Below are positions 32,086 to 37,522 of a stretch of 64,000 nt of DNA, piece by piece; within the stretch, counting starts at the first letter, position 1, and each line of letters opens with the position of its first letter. A program made the position numbers and the translations under genes. Source of the stretch: Spirosoma taeanense. Lineage in GTDB: Bacteria; Bacteroidota; Bacteroidia; Cytophagales; Spirosomataceae. The stretch covers positions 2,480,001 through 2,544,000 of the forward strand of contig NZ_CP053435.1 in assembly GCF_013127955.1 (NCBI RefSeq), given 5' to 3'. The notes under the pieces are model-generated. The model had not been told where the DNA came from, did not search any database, and saw nothing but the letters and a program-made list of their open reading frames with translations.

Positions 32086-32544
32086 TTACAATGCCGAGAA
32101 GGTGAAGGTTAAGGTAGTTTTATAAGCTCCTTTGGGTTTAAATATATCGGTACCGGGGGCCAGCCGGTATTTGATTGTTATCGGACGAGACGAATAGGCT
32201 GAGCTGACTGTGCCGCTTAGAATCGTTTGGGCAGTTGTCGAAAGCTGTTTCTCCGCCTGTACTGGAGTCGAACTGGTGACCTGCACATACATTGAGCCAA
32301 TGGGAATGCTGTTGACACCGCTGATAAGGTTCCCGGAAGCCCGTACCTGAAGCGTAATGTTTTTATTGGCAGCTACGGTCAAGGCTAATGTCTGCTCCGA
32401 AACTGAAACGCCGTTCTGAAAGTCTGCCGCCGTTTGCACATATAAGTCAATGGCCGGGTCAAGTATAGTGATGGCTGTTACCTGTCCACGTGCTTGTGAA
32501 ATTCCCAACCAGCTTAACAGGCTTAGCCAGACCCAATGCTTCAT
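32086..32544 (-). CDS. Small secreted fibre-subunit-like protein (third paralogue)
   Basis: A 152-residue protein with signal peptide at 1-20 (MKHWVWLSLLSWLGISQARG). The mature part is all-beta in character and shares its layout with the two subunit-like proteins at 33387 and 34064: an NGVS segment, the phrase ITLQVRASGNLISGVNSIPIGSMYVQVT, and a C-terminal strand GAYKTTLTFTFSAL close to GAYTTTLTFTAVAN. It overlaps the stop codon of the chaperone-like gene by 4 bases (ATGA), so translation is probably coupled. Being last in the operon and the most divergent, it may be a tip or terminator subunit; that is inference. The segment LDPAIDLYVQ loosely recalls CS1-type pilins, but not enough for assignment. 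Confidence 0.65.
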   Translation of the reverse strand: MKHWVWLSLLSWLGISQARGQVTAITILDPAIDLYVQTAADFQNGVSVSEQTLALTVAANKNITLQVRASGNLISGVNSIPIGSMYVQVTSSTPVQAEKQLSTTAQTILSGTVSSAYSSRPITIKYRLAPGTDIFKPKGAYKTTLTFTFSAL

Positions 32545-33359
32545 GGCATATCGGTTTCAAGTTCGGCCACCTGCAGCGGAATATCAGTTCCGCTGTCAAT
32601 AATAGCGATAATCAGATATCGCCCTTTGGCCAGCTTCTCGGGCAATAGAGTCTTCAACCAGATTCGCTCTCCGGGCATGGTGTTAACGGGCACCGGCGGT
32701 AGTTTAATTTCCTCAGCCGTCTGCAGGTTCGTTAACTCAACCCGTAACTGACTTTCCAGGTCGAGCTCACCTGCATTACGTACACGCACCTGCAGTTGCT
32801 GAACCTCTTTGTTGTGGCTGAGAAAGAGCGTATCAATCTCCATTGTTTTCAGTTTAACGGCGGCTGGTATATGGTACAGGTGAACCCCGATCTGAACTTT
32901 GAAGATAAACCCAGATTTACGTCCCTGGGCTTCGGCAATTTCGCGTTCGTTTATCTGCGTCAGCATCAGCATTCCATTCCGTAGCTGCTGATTGCCTAGC
33001 TTATCAGGATTGAGGGACACCAGCACCTCCTGTTGACTACCCGGCTCAAGTTCAACGGTTTCAGGCTGCACTCGCAGGTAGGGACAGCAGGAGGACGGTA
33101 ACGAGCCGGCAGGGTGAAACTGCTTTTCGCCGAGCGAATCGCGTCGCCAGTCAACGCAGCTTGCCCGAATCACCATTCGCACAGCACTTGGGTTAGTGAC
33201 TTTGATACGAACAGGAGCAAGTTTGTTATTTTTTTCCTCGAAATATACTTTCGGTGGTTCAACCTGAAAGCCAGCCTGTCCGAAGGTCCGGCTGGTTATG
33301 GCCAGGAATAAAAATAAAAAACGAAACAAGGGAATATCATTGCTATTGAACGAACGCAT
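32541..33359 (-). CDS. PapD-like periplasmic chaperone candidate
   Basis: A 272-residue exported protein with a signal peptide at about 1-27. Two Ig-like beta domains can be read. The first (about 30-155) starts FQVEPPKVYFEEKNNKLAPVRIKVTNPSA, the opening strands known from pilus chaperones and related PapD folds, and ends with an alternating hydrophobic strand (NGMLMLTQINER). The second (about 165-268) includes VRVRNAGELDLESQLRVELTNL. Cysteines in RASCVDW and SSCCPYL may form a disulfide. It lies between subunit-like genes and opposite a large outer-membrane barrel gene. A chaperone for the subunits fits best, but no homology search was possible; a plain adhesion or scaffolding protein is an alternative. 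Confidence 0.6.
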   Translation of the reverse strand: MRSFNSNDIPLFRFLFLFLAITSRTFGQAGFQVEPPKVYFEEKNNKLAPVRIKVTNPSAVRMVIRASCVDWRRDSLGEKQFHPAGSLPSSCCPYLRVQPETVELEPGSQQEVLVSLNPDKLGNQQLRNGMLMLTQINEREIAEAQGRKSGFIFKVQIGVHLYHIPAAVKLKTMEIDTLFLSHNKEVQQLQVRVRNAGELDLESQLRVELTNLQTAEEIKLPPVPVNTMPGERIWLKTLLPEKLAKGRYLIIAIIDSGTDIPLQVAELETDMP

Positions 33360-33386
33360 AGAAATTCTGCCAGAACGAGATGTGGA

Positions 33387-33917
33387 TTAATTAGCTACAG
33401 CTGTAAACGTCAGGGTGGTTGTATAAGCACCCGCTGGTTTCAGAAATGCATTATTACCGGCGGCCGTGGAAAACTGCATGGAAATCTGTTTCGACATCGA
33501 AGCTGGAATTCCCGTCGCCAGCGACTGGTCGGTGGTCGAAAGAGCCGATACGACTGACTGCGTACCTAGCCCCGTACCGGTCGTCTGGGCTGAAATGTTG
33601 CTTACCGGAATGGTGTTGCTGCCACTCACCATATCCGTACCGGAGGTTTTGATTTTCAAATCGTAAGCACGGTTGCAGGTTATCGTCAGTTGGTTGGAGA
33701 CTGCCGAGGAAACCCCATTGATATAATTTACCGGGGTTGTAAAGTTGAGGCTAACGGTAGTAACATTGACAGTTACCTGCAGTACGTCTGATATATTGGT
33801 GGTCAGCGTGGCGTTGCCCGACGACTGACCCATGACGGATCCATAGCTGAGGCAAAAGATAATTAGAGATAGACGTATAGCCTGCCTCAGTAAAGTAGTA
33901 TAAAGCATATTTAACAA
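33387..33917 (-). CDS. Secreted fibre-subunit-like protein (second paralogue)
   Basis: A 176-residue protein with signal peptide to about 31 (ending VMGQ). The mature part (about 145 residues) is Ser/Thr/Asn-rich and beta-predicted. It begins SGNATLTTNISDVLQVTVN and ends AGAYTTTLTFTAVAN. A central block, SNISAQTTGTGLGTQ and VVSALSTTDQ, is identical in the first paralogue. Conserved features are NGVS, YDLKIKTSG, SMSKQISMQFSTAAGN and the final strand. It lies 27 bases upstream of the chaperone-like gene and 146 bases downstream of the first subunit gene and its hairpin. Probably a minor structural subunit; function inferred from context. Confidence 0.68.
   Translation of the reverse strand: MLNMLYTTLLRQAIRLSLIIFCLSYGSVMGQSSGNATLTTNISDVLQVTVNVTTVSLNFTTPVNYINGVSSAVSNQLTITCNRAYDLKIKTSGTDMVSGSNTIPVSNISAQTTGTGLGTQSVVSALSTTDQSLATGIPASMSKQISMQFSTAAGNNAFLKPAGAYTTTLTFTAVAN
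33535..33599. repeat. 65-bp block identical to 34212-34276
   Basis: This block is identical over 65 bases in the two subunit genes, while flanking coding sequence differs at many positions. It starts GTCGAAAGAGCCGATACG and encodes the shared central peptide. It suggests recent duplication or gene conversion. Confidence 0.92.
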
Positions 33918-34005
33918 TTTACGTTACGGTTGGCTGGTCTATGCCCGGTTGGAGTGTGTTCGCAGTATTATAAATTATCCCGGAGGGAATATGCGTACAG
34001 GCATT

Positions 34006-34060
34006 AAAAAGTAAACAAGGACCGGTCAAGACAGTCTTGACCGGTCCTTGTTTACTTTTT
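34006..34060 (-). terminator. Long perfect hairpin after the first subunit gene
   Basis: Two 27-base arms (34006-34032 and 34034-34060) pair perfectly around one central base, ending in an A-run / T-run (AAAAAGTAAAC... and ...GTTTACTTTTT). On the minus strand the right-hand run gives a terminal U-tract. It begins 3 bases after the stop codon of the 34064-34591 gene. This is a strong intrinsic terminator, placed inside the probable operon, and would favour the first subunit over downstream genes. Confidence 0.88.
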
Positions 34061-34063
34061 AGC

Positions 34064-34591
34064 CTAGTTGGCTGTAGCCGTAAACGTCAGCGTGGTCGTA
34101 TAATCACCTGATGGTTTTAAAAAAGCGCTGTTACCGGCGGCCGTGGAAAACTGCATGGAAATCTGCTTCGACATTGAAGGTGGTACAGCCGTTGCCAGCG
34201 TTTGGTCGGTAGTCGAAAGAGCCGATACGACTGACTGCGTACCTAGCCCCGTACCGGTCGTCTGGGCTGAAATGTTACTTACCGGAATCAGGTTTTGTCC
34301 GTTAACCAGATCGGAGCCCGAAGTTTTGATCTTCAAATCGTAAGGACGATTCGACGTTACGGTTAACTGATTCGGGACGGGCTTGGTGACACCATTATTG
34401 TAATCAGCCGGTGTGGCAAACTCAATATCAACGTTAGCGGTGTTTATCTTCAATTCCAGCACATCGCTCAGCTTGACATTCATTGTTGATGTCCCCGACG
34501 ACTGAGCAAAGGCCGGAATTGTTCCGAGCCCCATCATTAGTAGACTCGCAATAGCTAGTCGCTGCACATTTAATGTTGGTTGAAATACCAT
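34064..34591 (-). CDS. Secreted fibre-subunit-like protein (first paralogue, probable major subunit)
   Basis: A 175-residue exported protein; signal peptide at about 1-29 (ending in PAFAQ). The mature protein starts SSGTSTMNVKLSDVLELKIN and ends SGDYTTTLTFTATAN. Conserved with the 33387 gene over most of its length: YNNGVTKPVPNQLTVTSNR, YDLKIKTSGSDLVNG, SNISAQTTGTGLGTQ, MSKQISMQFSTAAGN. All-beta pattern with a terminal TLTF strand recalls donor-strand-exchange pilins, though I cannot name a Pfam family. It is first in the operon, has a consensus promoter about 62 bases upstream and a strong terminator after it, the pattern expected for a major subunit. Confidence 0.7.
   Translation of the reverse strand: MVFQPTLNVQRLAIASLLMMGLGTIPAFAQSSGTSTMNVKLSDVLELKINTANVDIEFATPADYNNGVTKPVPNQLTVTSNRPYDLKIKTSGSDLVNGQNLIPVSNISAQTTGTGLGTQSVVSALSTTDQTLATAVPPSMSKQISMQFSTAAGNSAFLKPSGDYTTTLTFTATAN
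34212..34276. repeat. 65-bp block identical to 33535-33599
   Basis: Second copy of the 65-base identical block, in the first subunit gene. See the entry at 33535 for interpretation. Confidence 0.92.
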
Positions 34592-34652
34592 AAAAATAGG
34601 TTTTATAGATTAAGTAAAGTGAACTGTTAACTAAAAAGATACTATATTTACT

Positions 34653-34683
34653 CAAATGTAAAGTACTTAGTACTGGTATCAAA
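34653..34683 (-). promoter_or_regulatory. Bacteroidota consensus promoter for the subunit operon
   Basis: Reading the minus strand: TTTG (34680-34683), 19 bases, then TACATTTG (34653-34660). This is an exact match to the Bacteroidota vegetative promoter TTTG-N19-21-TAnnTTTG. Transcription would start near 34646, about 55 bases before the first subunit start codon. The divergent usher-like gene starts at 34700, so the -33 element is only 16 bases from that start. Confidence 0.85.
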
Positions 34684-34699
34684 AAAAATAGAATTATTA

Positions 34700-37522
34700 A
34701 TGATAAAATATTTACTGTTTAGTTGGTTTTTAACGTTTTCAGCACTAGCAAACTGGGTCGATAAGCCGCAGCCAACTCGCTTAGTTGTTAAAGAACCACA
34801 CTTAGAGGGTGCGCCTGGAAGTACATTTTTTAATCAGATCACACTGACGAACTCAACAGATCAGGTTAGAAACGTACGACTTAAACTGATAGCACCTAAT
34901 GCCTTTCGCCTGCTGACGCAGCTACCAGCCAGTTTGTCTCTGGCTCCCCACACATCCCGAAAGCTTTCGCTCAAATTTTTAATAGATCGCAGCTGGATTC
35001 AAACCGAGGCTGTAGTCCGCCTTGAAACTCTTCAGGATGACCCAGCTGAAGCATCCGTCATCGAGTTTGTCGTCAGGCAGAACAATAATATACCGTCAAT
35101 ATTGACGTTCTCGCTCATTCACGAAGCCCCCTATATTTCAGCCGGGCAGGATACGCTGCCTATACTACTAAACTTCTCTAATCAGGGCCCCCGACCCCGT
35201 AAGGTCCGATTAACGCTTTTTTCTATACCAGGAGGTTTTCGGCTGACGCAGCTGCATCCGGTGCTGACGGTTAGTGCCCGTACTGATACAATCCTGACCT
35301 TGACTTGTCTGGTTGGTAGGTCGGTGCAGTGGGATCGAACGTATGACCTGGCTATTGAAGCGCAGGAATTGCTGCCAGGCGACGTGGCTGGACTCCTTCT
35401 TGGCAGCATTGTTTGTCGACCGGTGCTGCTGTCATCGACCAAGCGACTAACGGAAAAACGCCAGAACGACCTTGCCGCGGGTGGCATAGCGCTGAGCCTT
35501 AGTCGGTTCGGTGCGGCCGGGATGGTGCGGGAGGTGCGGGCCTGGGGACAGGAAGATCTGGTTAAAGGAAGTTTGACCTATCAGGCTCACTACCTTAATT
35601 ACATTGGTCAGCGTTACCATGAACTACGCGATACCTACCTGCAGTATCAGCAGTCCGATTTCCAGCTGCGAGTAGGGAGCCTGTTTGATTATCACGAACT
35701 GGCGCTGATTGGCGTGGGGGTGAAGTTTTCACATATGCTGGGCGAATCTACCCGTCTGGAAGGGTGGGCCTTACGGAATCAGTCGAACTGGCTTGCTAAT
35801 TTACCCGGCATCAACCAGTCGGTGCCCGGTCTTAGCCAGTCGGGTGTCGACCAGACATATTCGCTGCGCCTGTCCGGGCGAATACCCTTGTCGGGCGTAG
35901 CGGTTTATGAAGCCAGCAGCAGCTATTATCGCCAGCAACGTTACAATCGGGCCGGAGTGCTGAACTTTGCCACGGCACTGTGGCAGCCTGACAAACGAAC
36001 GAAATTTCGACTTATGGCGGGGCAGAGCATAGAAGCGTCGCCGGGACAGGCTAACCGACAGCAGACCGTTGGCTGGGCGCTGGCGGGCGGTTATGAACGA
36101 ACAGGTGAAATCCTGGAGATTCGGGCGTCAGCTAATTTCAGCAGTCCCGTTTATGGAGGCATTCAGCGCGGGGCAGCTCTCATTGATCAAAGTTTGACTT
36201 ATAAAAAATGGCGTACAACACAACTCGCTTATAGGTTTAGCCAGGTTCAGTATGATCAGCGAATTTACACGGCCGCAAAGGAGGTAAGTCGACAACGGTA
36301 CGGCAACACCATAGCCGAGATGACGATGGCGCAGCAGTTCAATCGTCTGACCTGGCTGCTGCGGCCTTATTTCTGGATTCAGCAGCAGTCATTGCCCGGC
36401 AGCGCCATGCAGCGTTCAGAGTCGTATCGGCTGCTGACGTCCCTGCGGCTGGAAACCCAGAGAGGGGTGCGGTTGGAAGCGGGTGTGGATGCCGGACTGG
36501 TAAATGGTGTAGCACCCCCGACCGATAGATTTAAACAGCCTTCGTTTCGGTATTACGGTTCGCTGGGTATAAACCGGCTAAATCTGGCGGGTTTTTACCA
36601 GCGGGGGGTGTTTCTGATAAACGACCGACTGCCGGGAAGGGGAAGTCCGGGGGCTTACCGGCAAATTTCTATTTCTCCGTCGTGGCAGGTTCGCCTGCTC
36701 GATAATCGGCTACTGCTTAATGTCGGGGGCGGGCTCACCTTTAACAGTATCACCAGGTCATGGAGTGGGCTGTCGTACAATAGCATTACCTATGCGATGA
36801 AGGATAACCTGTTGGTTCGTTTTGAGGCTAATCTGCTTTCCTACGCAAATCAGTTTGCTGATATTGCGGCCGTTCCCTGGCAGGATTCACAGCTTCGATT
36901 TGAGGTGACAAAGTTATTCAAGCGGTCACCGTTTAAAACAAGTCGGACTTTACGGCTACGATTCTTCGAGGACCAAAACGCTAACCAGATGAAAGATGGC
37001 GACGAAAATTACCTCGATGGGCTAATCGTTAACGTGGGGACTGCGACGCTGATCACTGATAAAAAAGGAGCCGTCATCTGCAAAGATATTGCACCCGGGC
37101 TGCATCAGGTCCGGACAGTCAGTAAACTTGCGACGGGTGAGCCGGTCTGGTTTCAGGATACCCTGCGCGTGGGCAAATCCATGCAGCGGGATATAGCAAT
37201 CCGTAAAACCTGGCGAGTAAGCGGTCAACTGCATTATAACCGGGTCAAATACGAAAGTCTGCCCTACGATCTCGAACAACACCGGATCGAAACCTTCGGA
37301 CAGAGTGGTGAAGTTTATCGTACTTATGCCGACGCACAAGGCAATTTTACGCTTTATCTACCCGTAGGCCAGTACCAGCTTGAGATAGTACCCGTTCAGA
37401 CTCCGTCCGTCCGGAAAACAGTCGCTTACCGGGTCGACCCAGATAATGCGCCTACTAAACTCAACATTGAACTCGAACCGAATGGCCGACCCGTGCGCGT
37501 CAAGCGATTTTCGAGCCGCTGA
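34700..37522 (+). CDS. Usher-like outer-membrane beta-barrel protein
   Basis: A 940-residue exported protein; signal peptide at 1-17 (MIKYLLFSWFLTFSALA). Two Ig-like/NEW3-like domains span about 25-230 (FFNQITLTNSTDQVRNVRLKL; LPILLNFSNQGPRPRKVRLTL). A long region of amphipathic strands with aromatic ends (about 255-780) reads as an outer-membrane barrel; RVGSLFDYHELALIGVGVKF recalls the gated-barrel motif of ushers only loosely. At about 785-935 come two small beta-sandwich domains: the first (RFFEDQNANQMKDGDENYLDG) has the SdrD/usher-CTD Asp/Asn-rich turn, the second is carboxypeptidase-regulatory-like (TYADAQGNFTLYLPVGQYQLEIVP). Leader AAAAAAAATAGAATTATTA lacks a Shine-Dalgarno site. An usher or exporter for the divergent subunits is the favoured reading; a general surface protein is the alternative. 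Confidence 0.6.
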   Translation: MIKYLLFSWFLTFSALANWVDKPQPTRLVVKEPHLEGAPGSTFFNQITLTNSTDQVRNVRLKLIAPNAFRLLTQLPASLSLAPHTSRKLSLKFLIDRSWIQTEAVVRLETLQDDPAEASVIEFVVRQNNNIPSILTFSLIHEAPYISAGQDTLPILLNFSNQGPRPRKVRLTLFSIPGGFRLTQLHPVLTVSARTDTILTLTCLVGRSVQWDRTYDLAIEAQELLPGDVAGLLLGSIVCRPVLLSSTKRLTEKRQNDLAAGGIALSLSRFGAAGMVREVRAWGQEDLVKGSLTYQAHYLNYIGQRYHELRDTYLQYQQSDFQLRVGSLFDYHELALIGVGVKFSHMLGESTRLEGWALRNQSNWLANLPGINQSVPGLSQSGVDQTYSLRLSGRIPLSGVAVYEASSSYYRQQRYNRAGVLNFATALWQPDKRTKFRLMAGQSIEASPGQANRQQTVGWALAGGYERTGEILEIRASANFSSPVYGGIQRGAALIDQSLTYKKWRTTQLAYRFSQVQYDQRIYTAAKEVSRQRYGNTIAEMTMAQQFNRLTWLLRPYFWIQQQSLPGSAMQRSESYRLLTSLRLETQRGVRLEAGVDAGLVNGVAPPTDRFKQPSFRYYGSLGINRLNLAGFYQRGVFLINDRLPGRGSPGAYRQISISPSWQVRLLDNRLLLNVGGGLTFNSITRSWSGLSYNSITYAMKDNLLVRFEANLLSYANQFADIAAVPWQDSQLRFEVTKLFKRSPFKTSRTLRLRFFEDQNANQMKDGDENYLDGLIVNVGTATLITDKKGAVICKDIAPGLHQVRTVSKLATGEPVWFQDTLRVGKSMQRDIAIRKTWRVSGQLHYNRVKYESLPYDLEQHRIETFGQSGEVYRTYADAQGNFTLYLPVGQYQLEIVPVQTPSVRKTVAYRVDPDNAPTKLNIELEPNGRPVRVKRFSSR

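Follow-up and report, generated by a model that had tools for sequence, protein, structure and literature searches.

Does the genome of Spirosoma taeanense, a member of the Bacteroidota, encode a fibre pathway built from a PapD-like chaperone and an usher-like barrel? The question is raised by a divergent locus at 32086-37522 of the DNA analysed here (the window: 64,000 nucleotides, positions 2,480,001 to 2,544,000 of contig NZ_CP053435.1), which an original prediction from the sequence had taken for a chaperone-usher-like system, either distant or convergent. The five open reading frames (ORFs) it had named were all confirmed at their positions, with three subunit genes and a gene for a protein of two immunoglobulin-like (Ig-like) domains on the minus strand and the gene for a 940-residue barrel protein running divergently on the plus strand. 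It is probable, at about 0.78, that the locus encodes a divergent, plug-less chaperone-usher-like pathway, which would export small Ig-like subunits and string them into a surface fibre; the chaperone-usher-like interpretation is supported. The locus is laid out as follows.

32086-32544, minus strand: sub1, exported subunit of 152 residues without N-terminal extension, tip-like; overlaps the stop of the chaperone gene by 4 bases
32541-33359, minus strand: PapD-like periplasmic chaperone of 272 residues; two Ig-like domains at about residues 30-165 and 172-272
32865-32909, minus strand: G1 strand of the chaperone (residues 151-165) with alternating hydrophobic residues, from alignment and column counts
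33387-33917, minus strand: sub2, exported subunit of 176 residues, paralogue of sub3; N-terminal extension at residues 32-44, about 33786-33824
34064-34591, minus strand: sub3, exported subunit of 175 residues; strand-like N-terminal extension at residues 31-43, about 34463-34501
34592-34699, no strand: intergenic stretch of 108 bases between the divergent units, presumably holding the promoters
34700-37522, plus strand: usher-like outer-membrane barrel protein of 940 residues

All five proteins begin with a signal-peptide-like stretch, as judged by eye; the ORF of sub2 has a TTG start as listed, with an in-frame ATG three codons further.

The two-domain chaperone and its recurring neighbours

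The two-Ig protein, for which structure prediction gave two Ig-like domains as had been proposed (predicted local distance difference test, pLDDT, 90.5), is a true PapD relative, homologous to the PapD-type chaperones, because controlled profile comparison and fold agree. The family alignments held 25 chaperones (A1), 25 barrel proteins (A2) and 36 subunits (A3). The chaperone profile aligned over 217 columns with eight fimbrial chaperones of E. coli K-12 at an expectation value (E) of 5e-12, and 12 reversed or shuffled controls gave E 0.09-0.79. Among cross-controls between unlike families, A1 with A3 reached E 0.0039 over 23 columns close to the N-terminus (probability 8.6%), and the others were at 0.027 or worse. 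Convergence was ruled out for the chaperone by this comparison, so that of the two relationships first offered only the distant one stands here. In Foldseek, CsuC and CfaA took ranks 1-5 with the chaperone model, which by fold matched CsuC, CfaA, FimC and the Gram-positive WxLIP; the last was the nearest solved chaperone relative both by profile and by VIA-align.

The G1 donor strand carries alternating hydrophobic residues. Basic cleft residues, for which we take R8 and K112 of PapD as the reference positions, were kept in the 25 close members, while about half of the wider set of 77 do not keep them; in the window protein K37 (33249-33251) aligns with R8 and H160 with K112 of FimC/PapD. Single sequences were less informative: a search of the PDB with the chaperone reached PapD at E 0.23 only, and none of the five window proteins passed a cut-off when scanned against Pfam and NCBIfam. 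The curated cut-off of PF00345 (PapD_N) was thus not reached by the window chaperone; 4 of the 25 members matched this model below threshold or weakly (E <= 0.1), and the relative L122 matched above the cut-off. WxLIP_PGBD was matched weakly by 13 of the 25 and above cut-off by the relative L135.

Conservation was examined among 200 genomes of the family. Barrel homologues occurred in 25 of them and in 10 of 36 genera, the source genome counted; the locus is therefore patchy, like accessory fimbriae. In profile searches, barrel, chaperone and subunit homologues co-occurred in all 24 fetched loci (single-sequence searches found subunit homologues in 23 of the 24), and the gene set recurs far beyond chance. 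The source genome had one chaperone match, one barrel match and three subunit matches, all within this locus.

The WxLIP likeness raises the possibility of a WxL/WxLIP-like surface complex, in which the two-Ig protein would remain with the surface-exposed subunits as their partner, no transient chaperone would act and the barrel would be an export pore only. WxLIP itself belongs to the WxL/WxLIP system of Firmicutes, which has no outer membrane and no usher. We consider this explanation unlikely: compared directly, the profile matches PapD-type chaperones strongly; the protein has the G1 motif and cleft residues of an assembly chaperone; and a barrel of usher-like order is linked in every one of the 24 core loci, whereas monoderm WxL loci need none. 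The part of PMC10599100 covered by a term search makes no mention of chaperone, PapD or pilus.

The genes flanking the locus encode DUF6909, DUF1028 and DUF2279 proteins, a HAD hydrolase, a glutamine synthetase, a barrel-like protein and one protein without family; none of them appears to belong to the system.

The subunits

The three exported paralogues do have the common C-terminal strand that had been claimed for them, of the type YxTTLTF. After the signal-like start, sub2 and sub3 carry an alternating stretch of the type tatxNVxLxDVL, which is missing in sub1. As judged by eye, the chaperone-adjacent subunit has no extension or a replaced one both in the window and in 14 compact relatives (L028-L041); among other relatives, 13 of 13 longer subunit-domain proteins bear the domain C-terminally, and two of the 13 have a pair of such domains in tandem. 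A tandem subunit protein, with both domains in a single chain, is encoded at L042:6042-7058. The subunit set is, by analogy, in the arrangement of shaft pilins and tip adhesins.

The subunits showed weak similarity to E. coli pilins, and the N-terminal 60 residues of their profile matched TLP-1 (E 1.7e-6) and TLP-2 (E 7e-7) in the PDB (9ikj and 9ikk, 16 chains each). The TLP proteins differ in length, with about 237 residues against about 145 in the mature window subunits. A search for TLP in 296 genomes of the phylum gave nothing, and the literature likewise. Among the matches of the 36 subunits there was no Pfam fimbrillin family and no WxL family, and no lipoprotein-type cysteine was seen by eye at the ends of the signal peptides. 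Export by the type IX secretion system was considered and rejected, no secretion-tail family being listed for the 36 subunits.

At the DNA level, sub2 and sub3 (33387-33917 and 34064-34591) are identical at 50/60 to 56/60 positions over columns 301-480 and at 26/60 to 31/60 over the first 180, a pattern such as might be left after gene conversion or partial recent duplication. Arrays of 4 or 5 near-identical subunit genes with one chaperone and one barrel gene were found in L093, L095 and L097, which also hold a two-domain protein of 477-478 residues.

The barrel protein and its relatives

The 940-residue protein was predicted (pLDDT 82.7; predicted template modelling score 0.53) with the domains that had been read from its sequence, two N-terminal beta sandwiches, a large barrel and two C-terminal sandwiches:

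34775-35416, plus strand: two N-terminal beta-sandwich domains, residues 26-127 and 135-239 (predicted model)
35480-36919, plus strand: barrel with 25 longer strands by DSSP, residues 261-740 (predicted model)
35777-35851, plus strand: loop between barrel strands 6 and 7, the longest of the barrel, residues 360-384
36947-37474, plus strand: two C-terminal beta sandwiches, SdrD_B / CarboxypepD_reg-like, residues 750-824 and 828-925

Its nine best matches in Foldseek were FimD and PapC. Periplasmic domains before the barrel and two sandwiches after it, the order of ushers, are supported by prediction; the barrel alone is not specific. Several results weigh against an usher. Superposition of the model on FimD and PapC was poor, and with a second aligner MtrB, OprD-type, BtuB and AlgE barrels equalled or outscored FimD for the barrel part. 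Profile comparison of A2 with E. coli ushers found no sequence link, and 25 of 25 barrel homologues lacked an inserted plug of the FimD type. The longest non-strand stretch of the barrel is 25 residues (4-28 in the 25 homologues), at the loop position where the plug is carried in FimD, and no insertion of at least 8 residues was found elsewhere in the barrel. The structural resemblance foreseen by the original prediction was therefore borne out for the chaperone by CsuC, CfaA and FimC, and for the barrel protein in the ranking of matches but not in superposition; of the usher-like plug or barrel, the barrel was predicted and the plug was absent.

Because the FimD-type plug is absent and there is no sequence link to E. 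coli ushers, usher homology of the barrel protein rests on fold and context, and what prediction supports is an usher-like architecture without a plug. A single-sequence PDB search with the protein gave nothing useful; matches of the barrel profile to NOMO2 and alpha-2-macroglobulin-like lipoproteins were attributed to common sandwich domains. The usher model PF00577 matched nothing in the window genome and, in the 296 phylum genomes, nothing above its cut-off, with the E. coli control positive. Since the usher family model was not matched and the plug is absent, we file the locus as a divergent variant that would function in the manner of chaperone-usher pathways rather than as a plain member of them.

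The same results bear on two conventional alternatives, a chaperone-usher operon of the ordinary proteobacterial type and a pilus of type V (Mfa/FimA). Type V pili are donor-strand fibres of the same phylum, and the operon does have the general chaperone-usher layout. The original prediction and the abstract of PMC5789003 give type V as the kind of pilus known from Bacteroidota. Both possibilities are nevertheless very improbable, given the missing PF00577 match over cut-off, the lack of a fimbrillin match and of a lipoprotein cysteine, and the PapD-like chaperone and usher-like barrel that here replace lipoprotein processing. Compared with Csu (archaic) and CFA/I (alternative) pili, the chaperone fold, the G1 motif, the operon parts, the large outer-membrane barrel flanked on both sides by periplasmic domains and, in relatives, the two-domain proteins are the same. 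In contrast, the usher-like protein of the window carries a pair of Ig-like domains on its N-terminal side and is plug-less, models of ushers and pilins were not matched by sequence, and the two cysteines conserved in the E. coli subunits (A7) are, by eye, missing from the window subunits. The consulted part of PMC10104325 names Proteobacteria, Cyanobacteria and Deinococcota, and not Bacteroidota, as holders of archaic chaperone-usher pili, and PMC4793230, in the part consulted, excludes chaperone-usher systems from its survey. No description of such a system in Bacteroidota was found in titles and abstract starts among the matches listed, subscription papers and other preprints lying outside this scope.

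Profile searches of the 296 phylum genomes gave chaperone matches in 57, subunit matches in 9 and barrel matches in 113, the last being no count of systems, as most listed matches span the C-terminal sandwich alone. A wider sample was assembled from 40 stretches with chaperone matches in these genomes, 10 more and 2 distant loci (one of candidate division WOR-3). Of its 52 chaperones, 35 are followed on the same strand, within 150 bases, by the start of an ORF of at least 450 residues; 27 have a barrel-profile match, 19 a subunit-profile match and 12 neither the large ORF nor a barrel-profile match. Eleven chaperone-linked large proteins (u29) aligned with A2 over 851 columns at E 5.8e-39 (reversed 0.012), and their comparison with E. 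coli ushers failed (E 0.016). Twelve others (L152, L153, L154, L155-L160, L121, L124, L126) could be aligned with the ushers of E. coli at E 1.2e-5 and probability 81% (reversed 0.042), in 222 columns that take in the plug-holding stretch; the three weak PF00577 matches in the 296 genomes fall in proteins of this usher-related, chaperone-linked kind. The match of u23 with A2 (E 4.9e-11, 148 columns) ran through the C-terminal sandwich only, so a shared barrel of the two usher kinds is not established by sequence.

It could also be argued that the barrel is an unrelated outer-membrane transporter or anchor and that the subunits assemble by themselves, like TasA or archaeal threads. The scores of MtrB, OprD-type, BtuB and AlgE, the missing plug and usher sequence link, and the match of the subunits to TLP, a filament-like chain without usher annotation, are in line with this. 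Domain order and Foldseek ranking favour ushers, however, the barrel co-occurs in 24 of 24 loci, and beyond this family, elsewhere in the phylum, the chaperone likewise has full-length barrel relatives (u29) beside it, which makes an unrelated barrel quite unlikely.

Some further features of the relatives were recorded. A C-terminal SPOR domain was clear in 3 of 9 large proteins scanned across various loci (L153, L157, L158), all of the E. coli usher-related group, and marginal in L117 of the other group. In L105, L107, L109 and L113, chaperone homologues have no adjoining barrel gene, and the genes around them resemble, by eye, green sulfur bacterial genes. In L135 and L136, from a candidate division WOR-3 genome and another bacterium, the chaperone has a shorter barrel-like protein of 657 residues beside it.

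A possible mode of assembly and its meaning

In a chaperone-usher-like pathway of this kind, the subunits would enter the periplasm via Sec, as their signal-like starts suggest. The 272-residue chaperone would bind the C-terminus of each subunit and lend its G1 strand to the incomplete fold, and the complex would then go to the 940-residue barrel protein. The two N-terminal domains of this protein, together with its two C-terminal sandwiches, may act as the periplasmic domains of an usher. Here sub2 or sub3 would insert its N-terminal extension in place of the chaperone strand of the preceding subunit, and the growing chain would exit through the barrel. Having no extension, sub1 could receive a strand but could not donate one; it would thus form the tip, with sub2 and sub3 as the shaft. 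As the barrel has no plug of the FimD kind, the gate must be something else, possibly the N-terminal Ig pair.

More tentatively, and with doubt prevailing, one donor-strand chaperone family might underlie several fibre systems. It would serve plug-bearing FimD-related and plug-less ushers in separate branches of the phylum and stand between PapD and WxLIP; the window would represent a plug-less pathway gated by the N-terminal Ig pair, and chaperone-usher and WxL systems would both have branched from a single ancient scheme of chaperone-assisted assembly.

If the plug-less chaperone-usher-like reading is right, the locus would be a second donor-strand fibre route in a phylum known for type V pili. 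It would also provide a natural plug-less case that makes the need for the plug in usher gating testable, and an intermediate for asking how PapD-type chaperones and WxLIP relate.
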